A DNA stretch of 64,000 nucleotides, taken from the NCBI RefSeq assembly GCF_027497195.1, contig NZ_CP114905.1, forward strand, positions 4,351,001 through 4,415,000, written 5' to 3'. Under the pieces are notes generated by a model, which was given only the letters and a program-made list of their open reading frames with translations, made no database searches and was not told the origin of the DNA. The translations under genes and the position numbers were made by a program. How positions within the stretch are numbered: position 1 is the first letter of the stretch; the number at the start of each line of letters is the position of its first letter. This document shows, in pieces, positions 1,390-15,123 of this stretch. The DNA comes from Streptomyces sp. WMMC500 (GTDB lineage Bacteria; Actinomycetota; Actinomycetes; Streptomycetales; Streptomycetaceae).

Positions 1390-2130
1390 ATGAGCGGACC
1401 GGTCTTCACCCGGACACGCACGAGCGAGGCGCCCACCGGCGCGACACAGACGGGCGGGACACGAACGTCGGAGTACACCGAGCATCTGATCCGCGGGCGC
1501 CGCGCGATCCGCGCATTCCGTCCCGACCCGGTACCCGAGGACACTCTGCGCGGGGTCTTCTCCCTGGCCGGCGCCGCGCCGTCCAATTCCAACGCGCAGC
1601 CGTGGCGGATCGAGGTGGTCGGTGGCGCACGGCGAGACCGTCTGGCCGACGCCCTGCGAACGGCCCACGCCGAGCAACGCGTCACGGCCGACTACCCGTA
1701 CTCCGAGGACATGTACGCCCCCGTCCACCAGGAACGGCGGGCCGCCTTCGGCGCCGGTGTGTACGGAGCGCTGGGCATCGACCCCGACGACCACCCGGCA
1801 CGCGCGGCCTACGACGTGGAGAGCCTGGGCTTCTACGGGGCGCCCCATGCCGCGTTCCTGTTCGTCACCGGCGACGGCGGGCCGCGACTGGCCGCCGACG
1901 CCGGCGCCTACCTGCAGACGCTGTTGCTGGCCATGACCGGCTACGGCGTGGCCAGTTGCCCGCAGGGCCTGCTCAGCTTCTACGCCGACACCGTCCGCGA
2001 CCAACTTGGAGTGGACGAGGGGAAGCTGCTCGTGGGTGTCTCCTTCGGCTACGCCGTCGAGAACGCGCCGGTGAACCGGGTCGCGACCGGCCGGGCGGCC
2101 CTGGAGGCAACCACCACATTCCACACCTAG
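1390..2130 (+). CDS. Nitroreductase family FMN oxidoreductase
   Basis: A 246-residue cytoplasmic flavoenzyme of the NAD(P)H nitroreductase fold. Near the N-terminus it has the family start RGRRAIRAFRPDPVPEDTL, and then APSNSNAQPWRIEVV, the FMN-binding loop with conserved Ser/Asn and QPW. The C-terminal part carries the glycine-rich LLAMTGYGVASCPQG segment. The ATG follows a strong GAGGAGAG ribosome site. It probably reduces nitroaromatics or quinones; the physiological substrate is unknown. It is divergent from, and probably controlled by, the neighbouring TetR protein. Confidence 0.88.
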   Translation: MSGPVFTRTRTSEAPTGATQTGGTRTSEYTEHLIRGRRAIRAFRPDPVPEDTLRGVFSLAGAAPSNSNAQPWRIEVVGGARRDRLADALRTAHAEQRVTADYPYSEDMYAPVHQERRAAFGAGVYGALGIDPDDHPARAAYDVESLGFYGAPHAAFLFVTGDGGPRLAADAGAYLQTLLLAMTGYGVASCPQGLLSFYADTVRDQLGVDEGKLLVGVSFGYAVENAPVNRVATGRAALEATTTFHT

Positions 2131-2561
2131 AGTCGGTCCCGAAAACGCCGGTCACAGCTACTCGTTGAGGGCTGCGACCGATCGCCGAGGGGCCGGTGGG
2201 CGGGGGTCGGTGCGTCGAGGCGTGACTGCCCGGTCGGGGATGCCGTCGGGGCGGGGCTTGGTGCCGCGGGCTCCGGTTCGTCGAGGGGTGTGCGTCTCGA
2301 TGGGCAAAAGTCGAGGCGCGTGGGCGTTTTGGGATGATTCAGCGGGTGGGTTACCGGGAGTTTGTCTCGGTGGCGTCCACTGGGCCGTCTCGGGTTGTTG
2401 CATGTGGGGGCGAGGGCTGGGTTTGGCGCACAACGATGCTGGCGACGTCGATTCCCGGAGCCGGCCCGCGTCCCCGGAGCCGGCCCCCCGGATCGCCGAT
2501 CCGGGCGGTTCCGCCCACCCACCGGGGTTCGATCGAGGTCAGCCCTGGCTGAGCGAGTTGT
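2131..2561. other. Non-coding stretch between convergent genes
   Basis: No frame here shows a credible protein. It lies between the nitroreductase end and the end of the minus-strand zinc-ribbon gene. It holds GC-rich inverted repeats, the clearest being annotated separately at 2487-2505. Confidence 0.5.
2487..2505. terminator. Candidate bidirectional terminator hairpin
   Basis: An 8-bp perfect stem CCCGGATC / GATCCGGG closes on a GCC loop between two convergent genes. There is no T-tract, as is usual in this GC range. Confidence 0.4.
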
Positions 2562-3059
2562 TCACAGGTAGAGCTGCCGGTCGCAATCCCGGCAGTAGGT
2601 CTTGCCGTCGCGCTTTTCGGTACGCGGGTGTGTGCAGCCCTCTGTCCGGCTGCCCGGGTCGCGGCGGCGGGGTAACGCCTCGGCCGGGTCGCCCACTGCC
2701 GCAAGGTGGCGCCCGGTGGGCAGGGCGCGCGGCGGTGGCGCGTGGGGTGGCAGCGTGAGGGTGGCGTAGCGGGCGGCGCGGTGGCCGCGGCGGTCGTGGG
2801 CGTGGGCCTGGCGGCGGACCATGTGGTCCAGCTCGGCGATACAGGATCCGCAGGCGTACATCTCGCCGCCCGCCCCCGGCGTGATCACCGACCCGACCCA
2901 CACCACGGCCACCCCCTCCCGCCGGCAGAACAGCCAACACACCCCCCGCACCCACGCGTTGCCGTCCCCGGCCCGCGCCACCGCCGGCCAGGCGTCACGC
3001 CACGGACGCTCCGCGGCGGGCAGGAACTCCTCGCCCGGCCCCGGCGGCTCGGGGCTCAC
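2562..3059 (-). CDS. Hypothetical zinc-ribbon-like protein
   Basis: A 165-residue protein of unknown function. It has two Cys pairs: CGSC at mid-protein, and at the C-terminus C-x-HPR ... CRDC, which looks like a small zinc ribbon. Trp/Cys-rich central strands (VRGVCWLFCRREGVAVVWVG) suggest a compact beta fold. The start codon is GTG and overlaps the stop of the upstream 77-aa gene by 4 bases, so the two form a translationally coupled pair. Such small proteins often sit beside XRE/DUF397 genes in Streptomyces, and one lies just upstream here on the other strand. Confidence 0.65.
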   Translation of the reverse strand: MSPEPPGPGEEFLPAAERPWRDAWPAVARAGDGNAWVRGVCWLFCRREGVAVVWVGSVITPGAGGEMYACGSCIAELDHMVRRQAHAHDRRGHRAARYATLTLPPHAPPPRALPTGRHLAAVGDPAEALPRRRDPGSRTEGCTHPRTEKRDGKTYCRDCDRQLYL

Positions 3060-3289
3060 CGGGCGGTTCCCCGCGGGCGGAGGGCGGCGGCGAGCGCGCG
3101 GGCGGTGGTGATGTTGCAGCGCCCGAGGTCGATCAGCCCGAGGGGGGCGGACCCCGTGCAGGAAACGGGATCGAGCCCCAGCGACGGCAGCACCACCCCC
3201 GCCGCCTTGAGCGCCTCCCGCAGTTCGTCACACGCCTGCCCGGCCTGTGTGACCCTGTCCGGCGTCTGGGACCTGCCCCTCGTCGCCAT
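3056..3289 (-). CDS. Hypothetical small protein, 77 aa
   Basis: A short soluble protein without recognisable catalytic motifs. The helix QACDELREALKAAGVVLPSLGLDP is followed by a segment ending in LGRCNITTARALAAAL. The ATG is preceded by GGAG at good spacing, which supports translation. It is the first gene of a two-gene operon with the downstream zinc-ribbon-like gene (4-base overlap). It is divergent from the XRE regulator gene, with 146 bp between them that must hold both promoters. Confidence 0.65.
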   Translation of the reverse strand: MATRGRSQTPDRVTQAGQACDELREALKAAGVVLPSLGLDPVSCTGSAPLGLIDLGRCNITTARALAAALRPRGTAR

Positions 3290-3435
3290 TTTCCGTCACT
3301 CCTGACTTTGCTTTCCTGCCGTCCCTCTTCCGGGGCGGGAAATTACGGTCTGTGCCCCAAGCATCGTCCTCCCGACGTACTCTCAACAGGCCAAACGGCT
3401 TTCCAAGGCACCTGGCAAGAAGGTGAATTGAACGA

Positions 3436-4266
3436 ATGACCGAGCCATTATCCGAACTGAACGGTGAGCCCCGGAACGGTCTTGAGTGGTTCGGGCGCGA
3501 GGTGGCAGCGGCCCTGGCCCACAAGGGCGCCAACCAGCGCCAACTAGCGGATGCTACGGGCTACAAGGAGCCGTACGTGTCCAAGGTGAAGAACGGCAAG
3601 GCGCTGGCGTCGAGGCACTTCGCCGACGGCTGTGACCGGTACTTCGACACGTCCGGCTACTTCGTCCGTCTGCTGGTCCGGGTGAGCGAACGGGGGCATC
3701 CCGGCTGGTTCGTGCCGTACATCAACCTGGAAAAGCAGGCCGACCGGATCGAGAACTACTCCAACGCCCTGATCATGGGCATGTTGCAGACCGCGGACTA
3801 CGCGGAGGCCACGTTTCGGGCCACGCACCCGCGGGAGACCGACGAGCAGATCAAGGCCCGGGTCGACGCCAGGCTGGCCCGTCGGGAGGTCATGGAGCGC
3901 GACAAGCCGCCGCTGCTCTGGGTGATCCTGCACGAATCGACGCTGCGGACCGAAGTGGGCGGCCGGGCCGTCATGGCCGACCAGCTCCGCCACCTTGCCT
4001 CGACCGCGGGAAATCCCCACGTCACGCTTCAAGTTCTGCGCTTCAAAGCGGGTGCCCCCGCGTCGTCCCTGCCGTTTATCCTGGTAACGCCAGGCGACGG
4101 GGCAACAGTCCTGTACTCGGAGAGCAGGGGACAGGGGCACGTGACGGACTCCGCCACGGCGGTGGACAGTGCACGCACGACGTACGAGCGGCTGCGGGCC
4201 TCCGCCCGTGACCCCGACGAGTCCCTGGCTCTGATTCGAGAAATCGCGGAGGAGTACGCCAGATGA
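3436..4266 (+). CDS. XRE-family regulator with C-terminal DUF5753 domain
   Basis: A 276-residue regulator. Residues about 12-70 form an XRE helix-turn-helix (VAAALAHKGANQRQLADATG ... YVSKVKNGKAL). Residues about 95-275 match DUF5753 (NYSNALIMGMLQTADYAEA ... LWVILHESTLR ... ILVTPGDGATVLYSES). It overlaps the DUF397 gene behind it by 4 bases. Such pairs are abundant in Streptomyces; the BldB/WhiJ-like systems are the best-known relatives and act in development. Codon 5 is TTA, so translation may depend on bldA. A broken paralogue lies at about 34 kb. Confidence 0.92.
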   Translation: MTEPLSELNGEPRNGLEWFGREVAAALAHKGANQRQLADATGYKEPYVSKVKNGKALASRHFADGCDRYFDTSGYFVRLLVRVSERGHPGWFVPYINLEKQADRIENYSNALIMGMLQTADYAEATFRATHPRETDEQIKARVDARLARREVMERDKPPLLWVILHESTLRTEVGGRAVMADQLRHLASTAGNPHVTLQVLRFKAGAPASSLPFILVTPGDGATVLYSESRGQGHVTDSATAVDSARTTYERLRASARDPDESLALIREIAEEYAR

Positions 4267-4475
4267 GCAGCATGCACGGCACGCGGCCCCTGCAGTGGGT
4301 CAAGAGCACGTACAGCGGCGGCGAAGGCGGCGAGTGCATCGAGTGGGCGCCGGAGCACGCAGCCGCCACCGGTGAGTTCCTAGTCCGGGACAGCAAAGAC
4401 CCCCACGGCCCCCACCTCACCCTGACCCGCGACGGGTTCGCCGCGCTCGTGGAGTTCGCCAAGCGGCACGGCTGA
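4263..4475 (+). CDS. DUF397 domain protein
   Basis: A 70-residue DUF397 protein: W-x-KSTYSGGEGGECIEWAP, then the conserved VRDSK and LTLTRDGFAALVEFAKR. DUF397 proteins are partners of XRE/DUF5753 regulators, and this one starts inside the stop of that gene (ATGA). Its last 29 residues (GEFLVRDSKDPHGPHLTLTR onward) are almost identical to those of the second DUF397 protein at 34.5 kb, pointing to a recent duplication or gene conversion. Confidence 0.93.
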   Translation: MSSMHGTRPLQWVKSTYSGGEGGECIEWAPEHAAATGEFLVRDSKDPHGPHLTLTRDGFAALVEFAKRHG

Positions 4476-4524
4476 ACCGCCCACCCCCGACCGACCGGTC
4501 CTCGCCCTGGGGCGGGGGCCGTCG

Positions 4525-5187
4525 TCACCCCCCGGCGCACTCCACGTGGCCCCAGCCCGCGTCGTTCTTCGCGATCGTCGTACCCGCGGCGTACGGCTTG
4601 CCGCAGCGGCAGCGGCCCGGGTACTTGGCCTTCAGGGTGCCGCCGCCCGGCTTGCCTCCCGCGCGGCGCTTCGGGGCCGGCGCCCGGGTCGGGGTGTCTT
4701 CCGCCGTCGGGAGCGGGGAGCCGTGGGCCGTGCCCGCGGGGTTCTGGGTGCGGGCCGCTTCGGCGGCTGCGGCGTCGGCGGCGGCGTTGTAGGGGTCGCC
4801 GCCGACCTGGTGCGCGCGGACGTGGACCAGCCGTACCTCGCGGCCCGCGAGGCGGTCGTCGATGCTGCGTACCAGCTCCTGGTTGGCCACCGGCTTGCCC
4901 GCGGCGTTCTTCCAGCCGCGCCGCCGCCAACCGGGCAGCCAGTCGGTGACGGCGCGCATCGCGTACGTGGAGTCCATCCGCACCTCCAGCGGTACGTCCG
5001 GGTCCGTGGCCTCCAGCAGCCGCAGCAGGGCGGTCAGCTCGGCGATGTTGTTGGTCGCCTTGCCGAGCGGGCCGGCCTCCCAGCGCGCGACCGCGCCGTC
5101 CGGGCCCGCCACCACCCACGCCCAGGCGGCAGGTCCCGGGTTCGGACTCGCGGCGCCGTCGCACGCGGCGATGATCACGTCAGCCAT
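4525..5187 (-). CDS. rnhA: Ribonuclease HI with C-terminal extension
   Basis: A 220-residue protein whose first 150 residues are a type 1 RNase H domain, degrading RNA in RNA-DNA hybrids. The four acidic residues and the histidine are all visible: D10 (CDGAASPNPGPAAW), E50 (NNIAELTALL), D72 (MDSTYAM), H126 (VRAHQ) and D138 (NAAADAA). A Pro/Ala/Gly-rich linker leads to a 40-residue tail with CRCGKPY and HVEC, which looks like a zinc-binding treble. Monofunctional actinomycete homologues often carry such tails. It stands alone and is convergent with the DUF397 gene. Confidence 0.9.
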   Translation of the reverse strand: MADVIIAACDGAASPNPGPAAWAWVVAGPDGAVARWEAGPLGKATNNIAELTALLRLLEATDPDVPLEVRMDSTYAMRAVTDWLPGWRRRGWKNAAGKPVANQELVRSIDDRLAGREVRLVHVRAHQVGGDPYNAAADAAAAEAARTQNPAGTAHGSPLPTAEDTPTRAPAPKRRAGGKPGGGTLKAKYPGRCRCGKPYAAGTTIAKNDAGWGHVECAGG

Positions 5188-5269
5188 GCGGGCGATTCTT
5201 CCATCCCGGCGACCGGCGCCCGGCGGCTGCCCGGGTTCCGCGCGGTCCCGGCGGTCGGCGGTGCGGAGT

Positions 5270-6703
5270 TCAGGAGGGGCCCGCGGACTCCAGGTGCGTC
5301 AGCCGTTTCCGCCAGCGGGCCGCGTTCTCCTCCTGCCCGTACGTGGACTCGCAGGCGGCCTGGGCCCGGCAGGCGTACGCCGCCAGCTCGGGGAGGTGTA
5401 CGCGGGCCACCTCGACGAGCGAGTCGACGGCGTCGTCCCACGCCGGGTTGACGATCTTGTCGACCAGCGCGGTCCCCATCTCCATGGCCAGCTCCGCCGG
5501 GCGGGCCGAACCGCTGACCAGGGCGTGCAGGAACGGTCCGCTGGTGTGCCCCTCGTCGGCCAGATCCGCCAGCCGGCGGGCGGTATCGGTGTTCCCGGCG
5601 CGGGCGTGCACGAAGGCCAGGTCCATCGCGAACTCGGCCATCCACATGCCCGCCAGGTCGCCGCCGAGACTTCCCCCCGATACCTCGTCGGCCCGGTCGT
5701 GGTCCCCTTCGTAGAGGGCGAGCGCGAAGGTGGCCACCTGGGCGGAGCCGTTGTCGTAGATCCTGCGCAGCTCCGCCGCCGCCCGTGACAGGTCGCCCGC
5801 CTGCGCCAGGCGGTGTCCGTACTCGGCCGGGCTCTCGATGCCCGCCCGTCGGCGTGCTTCGGCGATGACGGACGCTCCGCCGAGGAAGACCTCGCCTATG
5901 GAGAAGTCGCCGCGGAACACCGCCTCCGCATAGGCCGCCCGCGCTTCCTCCTCGTGCCCTTCCTCGTGCAGTCGTAGGGCCAGTTCGAGGAGCTCGGCCG
6001 CACCTCGGTCCTGTGCGGCGTACTTGTCCTGGCCGGCCAGGAGGGCGTCGAGCTCCAGGCGGGCCTTCACTTTGGCGTACGGGTCGCCGTGGGGGAGTGC
6101 GACGGCGTGCCGGAACGCGGCGGCGGCGCCGTCGGTGTCGTCGTCCCAGAGCTCCCATCCGAGACGTACCGCTGCTTCCGCTTCGGAAACCGGACCCCAG
6201 GCGCCGGTGCCCCAGCACTGGCCTGTTCTGAGGGTCTGCGTCCAGCGCGGGTCGGTGGGCCAGACGTCGTACTCGGCCTGGGCGAGGCGCTCCTCCACGG
6301 GGCCGTGCTCGCCGGGGCGGTAGCCGCCGTTGAACGTCCCCGCGTAGAAGAGGTGGTCGAGGGTGTCGTAGGCGTTGCGGTAGTACGCCGCCAGCGCGCC
6401 GTCGACGGGTTGATGGCGCACGGCCACCCGTTCGACGCGCTCGACGAAGCGGTGGGCGTGGGCGCGGAGGAACGCGGCGTCCAGGGTCTGCGCCTGGCCG
6501 ACCTCGTCGGCCAACGGCCCGCGGGGGCGGCCCATCTCACCGTCCGCCGCTTCCCGCAGCACCTGGAGGAAGAACCCGGGGTCGGCCGGAAGCAGCGCGG
6601 CCTGGTCCCACCACGGCTCGTGGTGCACGAGCAGCACCCGCAGCCGTACCGGCCCTCCCGCGGAGTCCGCGTGCACGACGTGAATCCGGTAGATGTCGTC
6701 CAT
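5270..6703 (-). CDS. Hypothetical protein with helical-repeat C-terminus
   Basis: A 477-residue soluble protein. The first 170 residues are rich in Trp, Tyr and His (HHEPWWDQAALL, GTFNGGYRPGEHGP, VWPTDPRWTQTLRTGQCWG). From about residue 180 on it reads as TPR/Sel1-like helical pairs with Ala- and Glu-rich motifs (HEEGHEEEARAAYAEAVFRG, AQAGDLSRAAAELRRIYDNG). There is no signal peptide or membrane segment. I know of no assigned function; the helical repeats suggest a scaffold role. It stands alone between two minus-strand genes. Confidence 0.7.
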   Translation of the reverse strand: MDDIYRIHVVHADSAGGPVRLRVLLVHHEPWWDQAALLPADPGFFLQVLREAADGEMGRPRGPLADEVGQAQTLDAAFLRAHAHRFVERVERVAVRHQPVDGALAAYYRNAYDTLDHLFYAGTFNGGYRPGEHGPVEERLAQAEYDVWPTDPRWTQTLRTGQCWGTGAWGPVSEAEAAVRLGWELWDDDTDGAAAAFRHAVALPHGDPYAKVKARLELDALLAGQDKYAAQDRGAAELLELALRLHEEGHEEEARAAYAEAVFRGDFSIGEVFLGGASVIAEARRRAGIESPAEYGHRLAQAGDLSRAAAELRRIYDNGSAQVATFALALYEGDHDRADEVSGGSLGGDLAGMWMAEFAMDLAFVHARAGNTDTARRLADLADEGHTSGPFLHALVSGSARPAELAMEMGTALVDKIVNPAWDDAVDSLVEVARVHLPELAAYACRAQAACESTYGQEENAARWRKRLTHLESAGPS

Positions 6704-6853: not shown

Positions 6854-8431
6854 TCAGCTCTTGCCGTTGCCCTCGCCCTTGACGTGCCGCTGGATGAAGT
6901 CGTGGGCCAGGTCGCCGAACTGCTCGCCGAAGGCCATGGACCGCTCGACCGTCTTCTTGAAGTGCACGCCGCCGTCGACCCGGCTGTAGGCGCACCTCTC
7001 GTTGAAGTCCGTCCACGTCGGGAACGACACCCGCACGTTCTGGGAGGGAGTGATCCCCGGCTCCACGATCGACTTGCCGACCTCGAAGTCGAACTCCCAG
7101 CCCAGCTCGTCCGTGCCGAAGAACCGCCGCGCCGTCTGCGACGCCGCCGAGCCCACCGTGGTCGAACCCGACGGGTACTCCGGGTGGTCACCGGTCGGCA
7201 GGTAGCTGGACCACTCGTCCGCCCGGATGTCGTTGACCGTGCCCATGCCGATGCCACCCCAGGCGGTCAGCTTTCGCCGCCCGTACACGTACGGAACGGC
7301 GGTGATCGGGCGCACCGCCTCGTACATGCGCTTGAAGCGCCAGGCGGCGATGAGGGCGTCGAAGGTCGCCAGGATGTGCTGGAGCAACCAGTGGGCCCAG
7401 CCGTGCACGCCCAGTTCGTTGTTCTCGTCGTGCTTCAGGGCGATCTCGATGGACGAGTGGCCGATGCCCCAGAGCTTGTTCTCCATGATCTCGGCGAGCG
7501 CCTTGTGCTCGTCGTCGAGCGCCGCGGACGCCTCGATGACCTCGTCGACCGAACGCTTGTAGGCGCGGCGGTCGGTGTGGTCGGTGAAGTCGGGCCGGGC
7601 GAGGCGGAACCGGGCCGGGTCCTTGTAGATGTGCGGCAGGGTCACCGCGATCTGCGGGGTCACCATGTGCTGGGTGACGTAGATGCCCAGGTCGCCCGGG
7701 CCGCCGCCGGCGCGCCGGCCGTTGTGCCGCTGGAGCTGCGGCTGCCACCGGGAGGGGTTGTTCAGGTCGAAGGCGGTGTTCACCGGCACGTATCCGGTGT
7801 AGTCCGCCCACGGCGTGGGGTTGTACTTACGGCCCCCCTCATAACCGAGGGCGTTCATGCCGTCGCTCTTCATCACGTTCCAGACGGCCTTGGCCGCGAC
7901 GTTGCCGATGCCCACCGGGGTGGTCACGTCCTCCGACTCGTCGTCGGGGTCCAGACCGAGGGCGACCATCATCTCTCGCAGGGATTCCACGATGGGCGGC
8001 AGCAGCCGGCTCCAGATCGCGTTCTGGGCGTGGAGGCAGGCGATGTTCATGTTGCGGTTGGTGGCCGACTCACTGGAGGGGCGCTTCGGGATGTTGCTGT
8101 AAATCCCGACCGCGGTCTCGTGGTACGGGGCCAGCGCGTCGAACAGCGCCAGCATCGCCGCGCGGTTCATGAACAGGATGAGGGTGACGTCCATCGTGCC
8201 GATGAACGCGTCGCTGGCCGACTGACCTGTCCGCGGGCCGGTGGGCTGGGCCCACTTGATGTAGTTGTCCTTGTCCAGGTCGGGAAGCTCGGGCGGCTCG
8301 TCGCTGCCGGCGGCCAGGGCCGGGCGGGAGAGAGCCAGCGTGGAAAGGGCTGCCGTCGACCCGGCGCCGACCAGCAGCGACCTGCGGCCTATCGGCGAGC
8401 CTATGAGAGGGGTGCGTCCGGAACTCGTCAT
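6854..8431 (-). CDS. Tat-exported vanadium haloperoxidase-like (PAP2 fold) protein
   Basis: About 525 residues. The N-terminus is a twin-arginine signal (GRRSLLVGAGSTAALSTLAL, then ALAAG). The body is a vanadium-haloperoxidase/PAP2-type helical protein with RMYEAVRPITAVPYVYG, a TGDHPEYPSGSTT loop and a late SRVDGGVHF. In fungal chloroperoxidase the loop is PSGH; here the residue after PSG is Ser (about residue 423), so proton transfer may differ, while the later vanadate-ligand-type His is present. The start was set at the second Met because AGAGG lies properly before it and nothing lies before the first. Confidence 0.8.
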   Translation of the reverse strand: MTSSGRTPLIGSPIGRRSLLVGAGSTAALSTLALSRPALAAGSDEPPELPDLDKDNYIKWAQPTGPRTGQSASDAFIGTMDVTLILFMNRAAMLALFDALAPYHETAVGIYSNIPKRPSSESATNRNMNIACLHAQNAIWSRLLPPIVESLREMMVALGLDPDDESEDVTTPVGIGNVAAKAVWNVMKSDGMNALGYEGGRKYNPTPWADYTGYVPVNTAFDLNNPSRWQPQLQRHNGRRAGGGPGDLGIYVTQHMVTPQIAVTLPHIYKDPARFRLARPDFTDHTDRRAYKRSVDEVIEASAALDDEHKALAEIMENKLWGIGHSSIEIALKHDENNELGVHGWAHWLLQHILATFDALIAAWRFKRMYEAVRPITAVPYVYGRRKLTAWGGIGMGTVNDIRADEWSSYLPTGDHPEYPSGSTTVGSAASQTARRFFGTDELGWEFDFEVGKSIVEPGITPSQNVRVSFPTWTDFNERCAYSRVDGGVHFKKTVERSMAFGEQFGDLAHDFIQRHVKGEGNGKS

Positions 8432-8449
8432 GATCCTCTTTCTTTTCAT

Positions 8450-10333: not shown

Positions 10334-11554
10334 ATGCAGCGCACCGACGCCGGCCCGGCGTGCTTTCCGCTCGCCGAGCTGCGTCACGCCGTGGACGCCG
10401 GCATCGCCGCCTGGCTGGACCGCGGCGGTCCCGGCGCCGGTGCTGCCGATGGCGATGGCGATGCCGACTACCTCGCCACCGCGCAGCGGTGGGCGCTCAG
10501 CCCGCCCGGCAAGCTCCTGCGGCCGATCACCCTCCTCGCCGCCGCCGGCGCCGTCGGCGGCTCGTACGACGCGGTGATGCCCGCCGCCGTGGGCATCGAA
10601 CTCGCCCACGTCGCGACCCTCGTGCACGACGACATCATCGACGGCGACGAGCTGCGCCGCGGCAAGGCCGCGGCGCACCGCGAGTTCGGGCTCGCCCACG
10701 GGGTGCTGGCGGCCGACTCGTTGTTCTTCGCCCTCTTCCAGCAGCTCGGCGGCTGCCGGCGCACCGGCGTGCCGGAGAGCTGCGTCCTCGACGCCGTCGA
10801 GGCCCTCGGCGCCGCCGGGCAGCAGACCGCGCGGGGCGTCGCGCAGGAGGTCGCGCTCAGCGGCAGCCTGTGCGAGGTGACCGCCCCGGCGGACGGGGGC
10901 ATCGCCGCGTACGTGGAGATGGTCCGGCTGAAAAGCGCGTCGCTGTTCCGCGCCGCGTGCCACGTGGGTGCGCTGCTCGGCGGCGGGAACCCGGAGCAGG
11001 CGGGGGTGCTGGCGGTGTACGGGGAGGCGATGGGGATCGCGTTCCAGATCCGGGACGACCTGCTGCCCTACACGTCCGTCGTCGGCGGCGGCGACAGCGC
11101 CGACAGCGGCGGCGAGTACGACCATGACGACGGCGACCGCGTCGACCTGCGCGCCGGCAAGCCCGTCTGCAGCGACCTCCGCAACCGCCGCCCCGCGCTG
11201 CCCGTACTCCTCGCCCACCGCCTCGGCGGCCACGCCGAGCGGGCGGCGCTCGCCGCACTCGTCGACGGCACGAGCGACGAACACGGCCGCCACCGGCAAC
11301 TCTCACGTCTCGCCCGCGAGACCGGCGCGCTGCGCGCGGCGCAGAGCATGGCCCGCGCGTACGTCGACCGCTGCCACCGCGCGCTGGCGCCCGTGCCGCC
11401 GGGCGCGGACCGCGACCGGCTGGCGTGGCTCGCCGACGAGGTGGCGGGCCCGGCGTACGGCCAGGAGCACGGCGGCGTTCAGGAGCGCGGCTGCTCCCCC
11501 GCACACGGCAGCTCCCCCGCACACGGCCGCGCCACCGGCGGTGACCTGCCGTGA
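10334..11554 (+). CDS. Trans-polyprenyl diphosphate synthase
   Basis: A 406-residue all-helical prenyl elongation enzyme. The first Asp-rich motif is DDIID (99-103). The residues before it, AHVATLVHDD, place Ala and Thr at positions -5 and -4. This pattern is seen in C20 and longer synthases such as IspB, so a long chain is likely. The second motif reads DDLLP (241-245) with Pro for the third Asp, followed by GKPVCSDLRNRRPALPVLLA. It is the first gene of a five-gene operon; its GTGA stop overlaps the next start. It should supply the allylic donor for the UbiA enzyme at the operon's end. Confidence 0.88.
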   Translation: MQRTDAGPACFPLAELRHAVDAGIAAWLDRGGPGAGAADGDGDADYLATAQRWALSPPGKLLRPITLLAAAGAVGGSYDAVMPAAVGIELAHVATLVHDDIIDGDELRRGKAAAHREFGLAHGVLAADSLFFALFQQLGGCRRTGVPESCVLDAVEALGAAGQQTARGVAQEVALSGSLCEVTAPADGGIAAYVEMVRLKSASLFRAACHVGALLGGGNPEQAGVLAVYGEAMGIAFQIRDDLLPYTSVVGGGDSADSGGEYDHDDGDRVDLRAGKPVCSDLRNRRPALPVLLAHRLGGHAERAALAALVDGTSDEHGRHRQLSRLARETGALRAAQSMARAYVDRCHRALAPVPPGADRDRLAWLADEVAGPAYGQEHGGVQERGCSPAHGSSPAHGRATGGDLP

Positions 11555-12348
11555 ACACCCCGCCCCCCGACCCCGCCGCCCCCCTCGTCATGCCCCGCGG
11601 CGGCCCCGCCGCCGCCCGCTGGGACCGGCTCTACGAGACCGACAGAGAGGAGTACATCGACCGCCCCGACACCCCCGCCGCCGCCCGCCGCGTCCTGCGC
11701 GGCCTCGACCGGCTCCAGCGCCTCACCCTCGGCTACCGCACCTGCGGCCGGCTCACCGCGGCGGCCCTCGGCCCCGCGCCCCGCCCGCGGGTGCTGGAAC
11801 TCGGCGCCGGCTGCGGGCGCCTGTCGTCCGACGTCCTCCGCCGCCACCCCACCGCCCGCGTCACCGCCAGCGACGTCAACCCGCGTGTCGTCGCGGAGCT
11901 GCGCGCCGGGCCGCTGGGCCGCCATCCGCGGGCCGAGTGCGCGGTGGTCGACGCCACCGCGATCGACGCCCCGGCGGGCGCGTACGACGTGGCGGTGATG
12001 ACCACGTCCCTGCACCACCTGACGCCGGACGGGGTGGTGGCGCTGCTGGGGGAGGGCACCCGGGTGGCGCGGACCCTGCTGCTCGTGGACGGCTGGCGGA
12101 ATCCGCTGTTCCTCGCCGCGGTACCGCTGATGTTCCTGACCGGGGGTGCGGCGCACGTGCACGACGGTGTCGTCAGCCTGCGCAAGATGTACAGCGGCGC
12201 CGCCGTCCGGGCCCTTGCGGGGATGTGCGGAGCGCCACTGCGGGTGCACACTCGGTTCGCACTGCCGGGGTATCTCGTCGTCACCGCCAGTCGGTCGGCG
12301 TACGCCCCGGCAACTGCCGTTCAGAACCGTCTCCGTACCCGAAAGTGA
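11551..12348 (+). CDS. Class I SAM-dependent methyltransferase
   Basis: A 265-residue protein with the Rossmann methyltransferase core. Motif I is VLELGAGCGRLSSDVL (about residue 70), followed by the acidic loop TASDVNPRVV and then AVVDATAID and VAVMTTSLHHL. The C-terminal third is more hydrophobic (NPLFLAAVPLMFLTGG), suggesting a lipophilic substrate or membrane contact. GTG start, 4-base overlap with the synthase before it. In this operon it probably methylates the prenylated or hydroxylated aromatic, on O or C, as UbiE/UbiG do in ubiquinone synthesis; that is inference. Confidence 0.85.
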   Translation: MNTPPPDPAAPLVMPRGGPAAARWDRLYETDREEYIDRPDTPAAARRVLRGLDRLQRLTLGYRTCGRLTAAALGPAPRPRVLELGAGCGRLSSDVLRRHPTARVTASDVNPRVVAELRAGPLGRHPRAECAVVDATAIDAPAGAYDVAVMTTSLHHLTPDGVVALLGEGTRVARTLLLVDGWRNPLFLAAVPLMFLTGGAAHVHDGVVSLRKMYSGAAVRALAGMCGAPLRVHTRFALPGYLVVTASRSAYAPATAVQNRLRTRK

Positions 12349-12941
12349 GCCGCAACGGTATGCCCACGAGGACCCAGCTCCTTCGCGCAGCCCACGACGA
12401 CATCTTCGCCACCCCCGGCACCGACACCGCCCGGTCGGCCATCGCCCGCTTCCGCAGCCCGCTGACCCGCATGCTGCTCGGCAGCGACGGCCTGACGACC
12501 ACGCTCCTGGAGTCGTGGGCGGGCTCCCCGCTGGAGGTCGGCGACGTGACGCTCCGCTTCGTCCGCGCCGAACGGGCCCCGCGCGGCGCCGCCGCCCTGC
12601 TCGGCACCGAAGGCGACGTGCTCGTGCGGCACTCGACGCTCACCGACGCCCGCGGCCGGATGTGGTCGTGGAACCAGGTCGTCGCGGGCCCGGCCGGCGA
12701 GCCCGCGCTGCGGCGCTGCCTCACCGACGCCTCGGCGCCGGTGGGCCCCGCGCTGCGGGCGGCGGGCGCCCGGCTGGGGCGGACGGTCGTACGCGCCGGG
12801 GTGACCCCGTGGCCGCCGGACCCGCGGGAGCAGGCGGCGTTCAGGACGTACCGGCTGTGGTGCGGGGACGACGTCCTGGCCGCCATCCACGAGGTGTTCA
12901 ACCCCGCGCACGTACCGGCGGATCTGCGGGAGGCGGCATGA
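12345..12941 (+). CDS. Chorismate lyase-like (DUF98) protein, putative 4-hydroxybenzoate synthase
   Basis: About 198 residues. The segment SPLTRMLLGSDGLTTTLLES, then VTLRFVRAERAPRGAAALLG and a HSTLTDARGRMWSWNQVV strand, resembles chorismate pyruvate-lyase family proteins. These cut chorismate to 4-hydroxybenzoate plus pyruvate. Next to a PobA-like hydroxylase and a UbiA prenyltransferase this assignment is attractive, but it rests on my reading of the fold. I chose the GTG at 12345 because it overlaps the methyltransferase stop by 4 bases like the other operon junctions; an ATG at 12360 is the alternative. Confidence 0.7.
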   Translation: MSRNGMPTRTQLLRAAHDDIFATPGTDTARSAIARFRSPLTRMLLGSDGLTTTLLESWAGSPLEVGDVTLRFVRAERAPRGAAALLGTEGDVLVRHSTLTDARGRMWSWNQVVAGPAGEPALRRCLTDASAPVGPALRAAGARLGRTVVRAGVTPWPPDPREQAAFRTYRLWCGDDVLAAIHEVFNPAHVPADLREAA

Positions 12942-14212
12942 CACGGGCACAGCGGCGGGTGCGTACGCAGGTCGCCGTCGTGGGCGCGGGACCGGCCGGC
13001 CTGGTCCTGGCGAACGTCCTTTTACGCGCCGGCGTCGGCGTCGCCGTCGTGGAGCGCCGCTCGCGCGCCGAGGTCGAACGGCGCGCGCGGGCGGGCCTGG
13101 TGGAGCACCGGATCGTCGAGTACCTGCGCGCGCACGGCCTGGCCGACCGGCTGCTGGCCGAGGGCACCCGGCACGGCTGGTGCGACTTCCTGTGCTCGGG
13201 CCGGCTGCTGCGCTTCGACTACGGCGCGCAGTCCGGGGGCGTACGGCACTGGGTGTACCCGCAGCAGCTCCTCGTGCGCGACCTCATCGCCGACCTCCAC
13301 GAGGCGGGCCACACCCCGGAGTTCTCGCTCCCGGCGACCCGCGTGCACGTCGACGGCGCCGGGCCGGCGCGGGTGGAGTGCGCCGGGCTCGACATCGACT
13401 GCGACTACGTCGTCGGCTGCGACGGCCCGCACGGCGTCACCCCGCAGGCGCTCCCCCCGGAGGCCGCGCCGCACGACGGCCTCCCCGGGACCGGGCCTGC
13501 GCCGCCGGGCGGGCTGGACGAGCGGTACCCGTACGACTGGCTCACGCTCCTCGCCGAGGTCGACCGCGGCGTACCGGGTGTCGTCTACGCCGTGCACGAG
13601 GACGGCTTCGCCGGCGTCATGCCGCGTACGTCCCGCATCGCCCGGCTCTACCTGGAGATCCCCGCGGGCGACGCCACCGCCCGCTGGACCGCCCCCCGCG
13701 TGCACGAGCGGCTGCGCACCCGGCTGGTGGGCGCGGGCGCGGCGGTGCCGCGGCTGGGGCGCATCCTGGAGACGGGGGTGCTGCGGATGCGCAGCAGCGT
13801 GCGGCGGCGGTTCCAGCACGGGCGGCTCTTCCTTGCCGGGGACGCGGCGCACGTGCTGACGCCCTCGGGCGCGAAGGGCATGAACCTCGCCGTCGCGGAC
13901 GCCGCCGACCTGGCCGACGCGCTGATCCGCCGCTACCGCTACGGCGACGAGGCACACCTGGACGGCTACACGTCCCGCAGACTCCCCGAGGTGCTGCGGA
14001 CCCGCGACCTCGCGGCCGGGTTCCTGGACCTGCTCCATCCGCAGGGCCGGCACCCCGCGGACCGCCGGGCGGAACTGGCCCTGCGGCTGGAGCGGATGCG
14101 GGAGCTGGCGGAACCGGGCGCCGCGGGCGCCGCGTTCGCGCACTGGTACGTCGGCGCAGGCCCGGAACTTCCCGTCCCCCACACCTCGGCACCCAGGGAG
14201 CCCACTCCATGA
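12938..14212 (+). CDS. PobA-like 4-hydroxybenzoate 3-monooxygenase (FAD)
   Basis: A 424-residue class A flavoprotein hydroxylase. GAGPAG (16-21) binds FAD. RARAGLVEHRIVEYLRAHGL matches the p-hydroxybenzoate hydroxylase segment after the first strand. YPQQLLVRDLI and the DG motif GCDGPHG follow, then GDAAHVLTPSGAKGMNLAVAD at about 304-324, very close to PobA. An insertion rich in Pro/Gly/Ala (about 168-190) separates the halves. It should hydroxylate 4-hydroxybenzoate or its prenylated form ortho to the OH. Codon 29 (13022-13024) is TTA. It overlaps both neighbours by 4 bases. Confidence 0.87.
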   Translation: MTRAQRRVRTQVAVVGAGPAGLVLANVLLRAGVGVAVVERRSRAEVERRARAGLVEHRIVEYLRAHGLADRLLAEGTRHGWCDFLCSGRLLRFDYGAQSGGVRHWVYPQQLLVRDLIADLHEAGHTPEFSLPATRVHVDGAGPARVECAGLDIDCDYVVGCDGPHGVTPQALPPEAAPHDGLPGTGPAPPGGLDERYPYDWLTLLAEVDRGVPGVVYAVHEDGFAGVMPRTSRIARLYLEIPAGDATARWTAPRVHERLRTRLVGAGAAVPRLGRILETGVLRMRSSVRRRFQHGRLFLAGDAAHVLTPSGAKGMNLAVADAADLADALIRRYRYGDEAHLDGYTSRRLPEVLRTRDLAAGFLDLLHPQGRHPADRRAELALRLERMRELAEPGAAGAAFAHWYVGAGPELPVPHTSAPREPTP

Positions 14213-15123
14213 GTCTTGCGGTCCAGGCGCGGGCGTTGTACGGCTTCTCGCGCGGCAACCAGGCGCTGCTGAGCATCGCGCAGCCCCTGGTCGGCGCGCT
14301 GCTGGCCACCGACCACCCCGCGCCGGGCCGCCTGACCGCCGCCGTACTCGCCACCGCCGCCGCCTTCTTCGCGGTCTTCGCGGCGAACGACCTGTTCGAC
14401 GCCCGGCTCGACCGGCGCAGCGCGGCGATGGCCCACACCCGCGCGGCCCCCGACATCGACAGCGCGGGCGGCCGGCATCCGCTGGCGGAGGGCAGGCTGC
14501 GCTTCACGGCGGGGCTGGCGTGGGTGCTGGTGCTGGGCGCGTTCGCGCTGGCGGTGGCGGCGGCGCTGAGCTGGGTGTGCGCGGTGCTGTTCGTGTGCGC
14601 GGCGCTGCTGGAGGCCGTGTACTGCAAGCTGGCCACGGTCACGGCGTACAAGTTCCTGGTCAGCGGGGTGATGGTCGCGATCGGCGCGTGCGCGGGCTGG
14701 TTCGCCTTCTCCGGCACCGTCGACCCGCTGCGGCTCGGGCTGCTCGCGGTGTGGATGGCGGCGTGGGAGATCGGCGGCCGGAACATCCCCAACGACCTCG
14801 CCGACGTCGAGGAGGACACCCCGCTCGGCATCAAGACCGTGCCGATCGTCTACGGCCCCCGCGCCGCCGCGCGCCTCGCGGCGGCGCTGCTCGTGCTCTC
14901 CGCGGCGGCGGCCTGCGCGCTGGCCGTGGCGGCGTGGCCGTCGTACGGCGCCGTGGGCCTGACGCTCACCGCCCTCACCGCGCTCCCCACCCTCGTCCTC
15001 CCCGCCGCCCGCCTCCTCCGCCGCCCGGACGGCCCGACGGCCCTCGCGGTCTTCAACCGCGCGTCGTTCCACCCGGTGGGGGTCGTGGCGGCCTTCGTGG
15101 CGGGGGCGTGGGTGACGGGCTGA
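14209..15123 (+). CDS. UbiA-family membrane aromatic prenyltransferase
   Basis: A 304-residue integral membrane protein with about eight hydrophobic helices. Both Mg-diphosphate motifs are present: NDLFDARLD (60-68) and NDLADVEED (195-203). They are followed by TPLGIKTVPIVYG, the usual UbiA sequence after the second motif. It transfers a polyprenyl chain from its diphosphate to an aromatic ring. It is last in the operon, ATGA-overlapped with the PobA-like gene. The presumed acceptor is 4-hydroxybenzoate from the lyase-like protein and the donor comes from the first gene; the product is unknown. Confidence 0.88.
   Translation: MSLAVQARALYGFSRGNQALLSIAQPLVGALLATDHPAPGRLTAAVLATAAAFFAVFAANDLFDARLDRRSAAMAHTRAAPDIDSAGGRHPLAEGRLRFTAGLAWVLVLGAFALAVAAALSWVCAVLFVCAALLEAVYCKLATVTAYKFLVSGVMVAIGACAGWFAFSGTVDPLRLGLLAVWMAAWEIGGRNIPNDLADVEEDTPLGIKTVPIVYGPRAAARLAAALLVLSAAAACALAVAAWPSYGAVGLTLTALTALPTLVLPAARLLRRPDGPTALAVFNRASFHPVGVVAAFVAGAWVTG

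Follow-up and report, generated by a model that had tools for sequence, protein, structure and literature searches.

The window analysed here, a 64-kb stretch of DNA from the marine-type Streptomyces sp. WMMC500 that lies in a genome represented by a single contig of 8.6 Mb, carries a compact operon of five + strand genes at positions 10334–15123 (Table 1). The genes encode a polyprenyl diphosphate synthase (PPS), a methyltransferase (MT), a protein of the chorismate lyase type, a PobA-type FAD monooxygenase (FMO) and a UbiA-superfamily prenyltransferase. An earlier sequence-only reading of the window had described five consecutive same-strand genes of these families forming a self-contained set; all five frames were confirmed, and both descriptions hold by gene identity, with four of the five proteins passing their Pfam cut-offs (PF00348, PF13649, PF01494 and PF01040). 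That reading had also reported 4-base overlaps between neighbouring frames. Overlapping tetramers are present at all four junctions (GTGA, GTGA, ATGA and ATGA), but the one between MT and the lyase is perhaps not genuine: two lyase starts are possible, GTG 12345, which overlaps MT, and ATG 12360, which does not, and there are protein records that begin at the Met of ATG 12360. A tRNA-Asp called by ARAGORN at 10579–10673 (-) falls inside the PPS gene and is probably a false call.

Table 1 Features of the operon and its surroundings in the 64-kb window.
Feature	Positions	Strand	Support
PPS, trans-polyprenyl diphosphate synthase	10334–11554	+	406 aa; PF00348 151.8 bits
MT, S-adenosylmethionine (SAM)-dependent methyltransferase, conserved MPRGGP start	11551–12348	+	265 aa; PF13649 50.3 bits
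Chorismate lyase, Rv2949c/DUF98 type	12345–12941	+	Predicted fold, invariant Arg/Glu
FMO, PobA-type FAD monooxygenase, substrate pocket altered	12938–14212	+	424 aa; PF01494 208 bits
UbiA-superfamily membrane prenyltransferase	14209–15123	+	304 aa; PF01040 96.1 bits, cut-off 34.2
NapH1-like vanadium haloperoxidase	6854–8449	-	E 1.8e-241 to 3w35; twin-arginine translocation (Tat)-like N-terminus by eye
ArsR-like small regulator (by eye), cation-efflux protein PF01545, SBF-family transporter PF01758	17851–20134	+	Downstream of the operon

The operon is real and conserved. By labelling fetched loci with BLAST to the five window proteins (E 1e-4), we found the identical gene order in three related (MAR4-type) Streptomyces loci, L014 (S. 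aculeolatus), L015 and L036, while L039 holds the same five families at 43–66% identity in a rearranged form, in which lyase, FMO, UbiA and MT follow each other on the same strand and PPS lies on the opposite one. That the five families recur together in two arrangements goes beyond chance and speaks for a joint function. Conserved synteny, named beforehand as support for a genuine pathway, is thus in place. Gene maps of these loci come from a codon-usage caller with approximate starts, and neighbours without a family scan were named by eye; a TGA flagged in the L039 MT match is, by its coordinates, the gene's own stop. Ratios of nonsynonymous to synonymous substitution rates (dN/dS), as simple Nei-Gojobori estimates in very GC-rich genes, were below 1 for all five genes (0.08–0.57, 20 values) in four of the six pairs of the four same-order loci, and ranged from 0.37 to 1.08 against the distant L039. 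The L039 UbiA resembles, by eye, protein P0034 of S. harbinensis.

UbiA relatives were found at E 1e-20 in 9 of 392 Streptomyces genomes, where they are accompanied by both lyase and FMO in eight cases, by MT in five and by PPS in four; L014, which holds all five genes in order, was drawn from another collection. Class-level searching at E 1e-30 gave matches in 4 of 394 genomes, and a search of the phylum gave 15 of 396, 13 of them outside Streptomyces; the surroundings of seven of these 13 were inspected, together with those of the class match G729. Among the listed matches of a larger protein search with 7995 candidates, UbiA relatives occur, for example, in Amycolatopsis (53–55%), Actinomadura (49%), a Dehalococcoidales metagenome-assembled genome (MAG; 49%) and an Acidimicrobiia MAG (45%), so this UbiA type is not specific to streptomycetes. 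Starting from the lyase, relatives were found in 13 of 100 genomes including its own; in the 12 others, UbiA adjoins the lyase in two (G047 and G037), a PobA-like FMO without UbiA occurs in three and neither occurs in seven, a weak 26% FMO match in L018 being left out of this count. Three pairs of lyase and UbiA records from outside these genomes (P0016/P0066, P0019/P0055 and P0022/P0043) agree in the length of their contigs, pointing to further linked copies.

The protein at 12345–12941 had been read as chorismate-lyase-like, with structural evidence against a chorismate lyase named as what would overturn the pathway reading. This identification, the weakest of the five, withstands that check on the predicted structure. 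The model resembles both DUF98 and E. coli UbiC folds, and Arg90 and Glu178, which form the putative active site, are invariant in all 31 relatives; we take R76 and E155 to be the corresponding active-site residues of UbiC. Relatives of the lyase adjoin 3-deoxy-D-arabino-heptulosonate 7-phosphate (DAHP) synthases of two families, PF00793 in L018 and PF01474 in L025, which fits chorismate as substrate. Fold, invariant residues and neighbours are together consistent with a lyase that would make 4-hydroxybenzoate from chorismate. Transcription-factor ligand domains share the same fold class, and this candidate was rejected because a DNA-binding domain is absent and the matches to DUF98 and UbiC are the better ones.

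FMO belongs near PobA. All of the first 34 Foldseek rows for its model (mean predicted local distance difference test score, pLDDT, 79.6) are chains of 4-hydroxybenzoate or protocatechuate hydroxylase, as are the best sequence matches in the PDB, and the closest solved structure bears the title protocatechuate hydroxylase; scores lie far below the UbiH/UbiF cut-offs. By the title of another Foldseek match, a 4-hydroxybenzoate hydroxylase (PHBH) structure with 4-hydroxy-3-methylbenzoate exists, and these two titles suggest that 3-substituted 4-hydroxybenzoates are within reach of the fold. We presume the substrate residues of PobA, whose numbering is used for all pocket positions, to be Y201, S212, R214, Y222 and Y385. 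The nine UbiA-linked FMOs all keep Tyr201, Arg214, Tyr222, His72, Pro293 and Asn300, and eight keep Tyr385 (Phe in L039), and all nine carry four replacements, namely Leu210 to Gly, Ser212 to Met, Thr294 to Ser and Val47 to Leu. The Gly/Met exchange fits a pocket opened for a larger derivative of 4-hydroxybenzoate, the structural model itself containing no ligand.

The same residues bear on an alternative in which FMO would be a genuine PobA and hydroxylate first, giving protocatechuate from the 4-hydroxybenzoate of the lyase, after which UbiA would prenylate protocatechuate and MT would cap one oxygen. Retention of the residues aligned with the substrate-binding Tyr, Arg and Tyr of PobA is in its favour, as are L023, L024 and L025, in which lyase and PobA-like genes are neighbours and the fetched stretch contains no UbiA match. 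However, the FMOs of these three loci are just 33–40% identical to that of the operon, and the one aligned, from L025, has standard PobA residues at the four replaced positions, so that its Leu/Ser pocket stands against Gly/Met in all nine UbiA-linked enzymes. The operon FMO also misses the cut-offs of the NCBIfam subfamily and equivalog models (PRK08243, 323.9 of 351 bits, and TIGR02360, 231 of 538.7 bits, respectively). We regard this order of events as unlikely.

The remaining three proteins would supply a prenyl chain, attach it and methylate the product. In PPS, the first Asp-rich motif, DDIID, is preceded five residues upstream (position -5) by Ala in all four aligned copies, as in the octaprenyl synthase 4jxn, and the geranylgeranyl diphosphate (GGPP) synthase 1wy0 has Tyr at this position. 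A small residue at -5 of the first DDxxD is what we take to be the rule for long-chain polyprenyl synthases, and by this motif the product of PPS is probably longer than C20. The low-complexity C-terminal tail of PPS is present in L015 and L036 and absent from L039. As a side observation, the best NCBIfam match of PPS is a family 2 encapsulin cargo polyprenyl transferase, at 173.6 bits against a cut-off of 450. UbiA has both of its Asp-rich motifs, NDxxDxxxD and NDxADxxED, in 10 of 10 members. MT gave no match to a UbiE/UbiG model, and its relatives occur in seven of the 392 Streptomyces genomes, its own included. Inspection of all seven neighbourhoods placed five beside UbiA, one (L083) without an informative neighbour and one (L084) beside a type III polyketide synthase (PKS) set, where positions 2086–5652 of a contig of just 6 kb hold an srs-like group of type III PKS, ICMT and FMO genes together with the MT relative. 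These neighbours, by analogy, point to lipophilic phenols as MT substrates.

Taken together, we propose, with a probability of roughly 0.62, that the operon makes a prenylated, hydroxylated and methylated derivative of 4-hydroxybenzoate. This figure applies to the class of pathway; the alternatives weighed here fall within it or next to it, and their likelihoods therefore overlap with this figure. In the proposed sequence, the lyase would convert chorismate to 4-hydroxybenzoate, PPS would supply a polyprenyl diphosphate specific to the pathway (to judge by the motif, probably above C20) and UbiA would transfer this chain to the ring within the membrane, probably to C3. Hydroxylation by FMO would follow, with the unoccupied ortho carbon C5 of 3-prenyl-4-hydroxybenzoate as the simplest target, and the resulting polyprenyl catechol acid would be methylated by MT, probably at one of its phenol oxygens. 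With no decarboxylase encoded in the operon, the carboxylate is probably retained. Family knowledge is the source from which we infer the substrates, the order of prenylation and hydroxylation, the chain length, the methylation site and the product.

Several observations weigh against this proposal. The second motif of PPS reads DDLLP in all four copies, so its third Asp is missing, and 9v4g, the solved structure closest to PPS, goes only by the name 'prenyltransferase' and has Gly instead of Ala at -5. UbiA reaches 35 of the 275.45 bits required by TIGR01474 (4-hydroxybenzoate octaprenyltransferase), and BLASTP aligns it with E. coli UbiA over 66 residues only (E 0.005), which sets it far from the 4-hydroxybenzoate octaprenyltransferases and makes 4-hydroxybenzoate a putative acceptor only; FMO might also act before prenylation. 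No Pfam or NCBIfam model, PF01947 included, matches the window lyase, and no Pfam model matches its relatives in L025, L038 and L039; PF01947 was found in two of 20 listed homologs (P0014 and P0015, 26–27 bits against a cut-off of 22). In an hhalign comparison with a single UbiC sequence, Arg90 and Glu178 of the lyase align with the UbiC segments WLRE and LTELF at a probability of 3.1. Four of the nine Streptomyces genomes hold a lyase-FMO-UbiA core without PPS and MT in the fetched stretch, and L037 holds UbiA and MT without the other three genes in its stretch. Finally, a promoter and terminator scan of the operon, of a kind uninformative for Streptomyces, found none.

We also considered the operon in relation to the respiratory quinones of the host. 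The genome holds two genes of PF02621, the MqnA/MqnD family of menaquinone synthesis, and its only UbiD match lies ~0.6 kb from another UbiA match, a combination that fits the futalosine route to menaquinone. Since the host has its own menaquinone-pathway genes, the operon is an accessory addition, which bears out the earlier view that a Ubi-like set here is not housekeeping. A housekeeping quinone was rejected on the strength of those genes and of the few genomes with this UbiA type in Streptomyces and in the class, and the product is probably an accessory lipid-like polyprenylated phenolic instead of a normal respiratory quinone. Ubiquinone synthesis involves UbiC, UbiA, IspB, UbiD, UbiG/E and UbiI/H/F. 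The operon resembles it in taking a ring from chorismate, adding a polyprenyl chain by a UbiA enzyme, hydroxylating and methylating, and differs from it in having no UbiD, a PobA-like FMO and an MT without a match to a UbiE/UbiG model. No decarboxylase and no further ubiquinone hydroxylase or methylase is encoded among the five operon proteins; elsewhere in the genome the search was aimed at UbiD only.

A variant with a quinone product would have FMO perform a decarboxylating (ipso, C1) hydroxylation, giving a prenyl hydroquinone that MT would modify and, in the end, a redox-active polyprenyl benzoquinone. The absence of UbiD from the operon is in line with this variant, since the only UbiD gene of the genome sits beside another UbiA and loss of the carboxylate would need another route, although UbiD could act in trans; the PPS motif also permits a long chain. 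PobA-type enzymes hydroxylate ortho to the phenol, and FMO groups with them and keeps the Arg that we take to bind the substrate carboxylate in PobA (Arg214), both of which count against an ipso reaction. In two Actinomycetota outside Streptomyces, a distant relative (30–33%) of the operon UbiA adjoins an MpqE-like (methyl-plastoquinone) methyltransferase and two U32-family proteins (L091, 8764–12435; L092, 5681–9455). These sets are a possible benzoquinone pathway in Actinomycetota, and as neighbours of a UbiA relative they favour the variant; however, the relation of that UbiA is distant, the methyltransferases score 279 and 261 bits against a cut-off of 335, and the U32 proteins match the TrhP, UbiU and UbiV models below the respective cut-offs. 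We judge the variant rather unlikely. Its broader form, in which some Streptomyces would make a long-chain polyprenyl benzoquinone beside menaquinone, with a PobA-type enzyme replacing UbiD and a ring hydroxylase, appears improbable.

The sequence-only reading had stated that no terpene cyclase is near, which overlooks the NapH1-like vanadium haloperoxidase gene; in MAR4 strains, enzymes of this class cyclise terpene chains. MAR4 haloperoxidases cyclise geranyl chains (PMC10897937), and three of the named holders of the nearest lyase relatives (Streptomyces sp. 184, B8F3, CNQ-509, CMB-StM0423 and S. aculeolatus), namely CNQ-509, CMB-StM0423 and S. aculeolatus, are called MAR4 in the same article. 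The host genome probably belongs to this group as well, as supported by its many vanadium chloroperoxidase (VCPO) matches (17 stretches, of which 11 exceed the cut-off and are almost complete in length). A further alternative has the haloperoxidase chlorinate and cyclise the prenylated phenol of the operon to give a MAR4 meroterpenoid, an extra step that would be compatible with the proposed pathway. The strong NapH1 match, the reported chemistry and a copy in L014, truncated at the end of its contig and located ~6.8 kb upstream of the operon, speak for such a step. Yet the gene lies 1.9 kb upstream of the operon, is transcribed divergently and is separated from it by another small gene, and no haloperoxidase match was found in the fetched stretches upstream of the operon in L015 (6.8 kb) and L036 (3.6 kb, as far as the homologue of the far-side gene). 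With so many VCPO genes in the genome, a nearby one is also unsurprising. Participation of this enzyme is highly doubtful, and its inclusion as a sixth operon gene is not supported.

Each step of the proposed pathway has precedent in described systems. Nearest in logic is the xiamenmycin (xim) cluster of Streptomyces xiamenensis 318, in which the chorismate lyase XimC yields 4-hydroxybenzoate that is prenylated by the UbiA-type enzyme XimB (PMC4053376). Both are five-gene Streptomyces sets with a chorismate lyase, a UbiA-type enzyme and then an FAD enzyme. The xim cluster differs in having the amide synthetase XimA, the epoxidase-type FAD enzyme XimD and the SnoaL-like cyclase XimE, and in using geranyl diphosphate; none of the functions of ximA, ximD and ximE occurs among the five operon genes, which carry PPS, MT and the PobA-type FMO in their place, so three of five functions differ. 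For XimB, an identity of 34% to E. coli UbiA is reported (PMC4053376), and a comparable match is lacking both in the operon UbiA and in its S. xiamenensis homologue, P0041 (318 aa). Judged from the published length and identity, P0041 is probably not XimB (313 aa), and the operon UbiA is unlikely to be an XimB orthologue.

UbiA-superfamily enzymes serving specialised metabolism are also known from marine Streptomyces, where the membrane enzymes Mpz10 and CnqPT1 prenylate 1,6-dihydroxyphenazine (PMC4044012, PMC10897937); CnqPT1 comes from the MAR4 strain CNQ-509 and is not colocalised with phenazine genes (PMC10897937). The CNQ-509 genome (G222) has eight PF01040 matches, of which L103 is the operon copy with the motif NDLFDARLD. 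Another, L108, has the motif NALADREQD, like NALADRWED of Mpz10 (PMC4044012), and is flanked by two FAD monooxygenase-like genes (by eye). The operon UbiA of the window likewise reads NDLFDARLD and departs from NALADRxxD; assignment to the CnqPT1/Mpz10 type was rejected, and judged by motif L108 is probably the likelier CnqPT1. That no phenazine gene was recognised near the operon carries little weight here, given the separate location of CnqPT1. The srs operon, with the type III PKS SrsA, the ICMT SrsB and the monooxygenase SrsC, methylates and hydroxylates phenolic lipids (PMC6669644). It is likewise a small operon acting on a lipophilic phenol, and an MT relative lies in the srs-like set of L084, but ring and tail come from the PKS in srs, as against chorismate and isoprenoid in the operon.

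No description of the five-gene set was found in the open-access literature, the coverage of which was partial, so novelty is unproven; the earlier reading likewise knew of no described pathway with exactly this gene order. The terms 'hydroxybenz', 'UbiA' and 'benzoquinone' are likewise absent from the searched text of the MAR4 review (PMC10897937), its charts lying outside that text. The operon represents a small, complete-looking pathway that could be transferred to a clean host as a whole, and its clade is noted for hybrids of halogenated isoprenoid type. It bears on the role of Streptomyces UbiA-type enzymes besides the menaquinone one, a question raised in PMC4044012, and offers a test of the ability of the PobA fold to handle prenylated, membrane-derived substrates. 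Should the product prove to be a quinone, it would run counter to the view that streptomycetes make menaquinones and not ubiquinones (PMC4044012).

Beyond the five-gene loci, the lyase-FMO-UbiA core of L016, L038 and L041 lies ~3–6 kb from a geosmin synthase-like gene (by eye), a neighbourhood that these three loci share.

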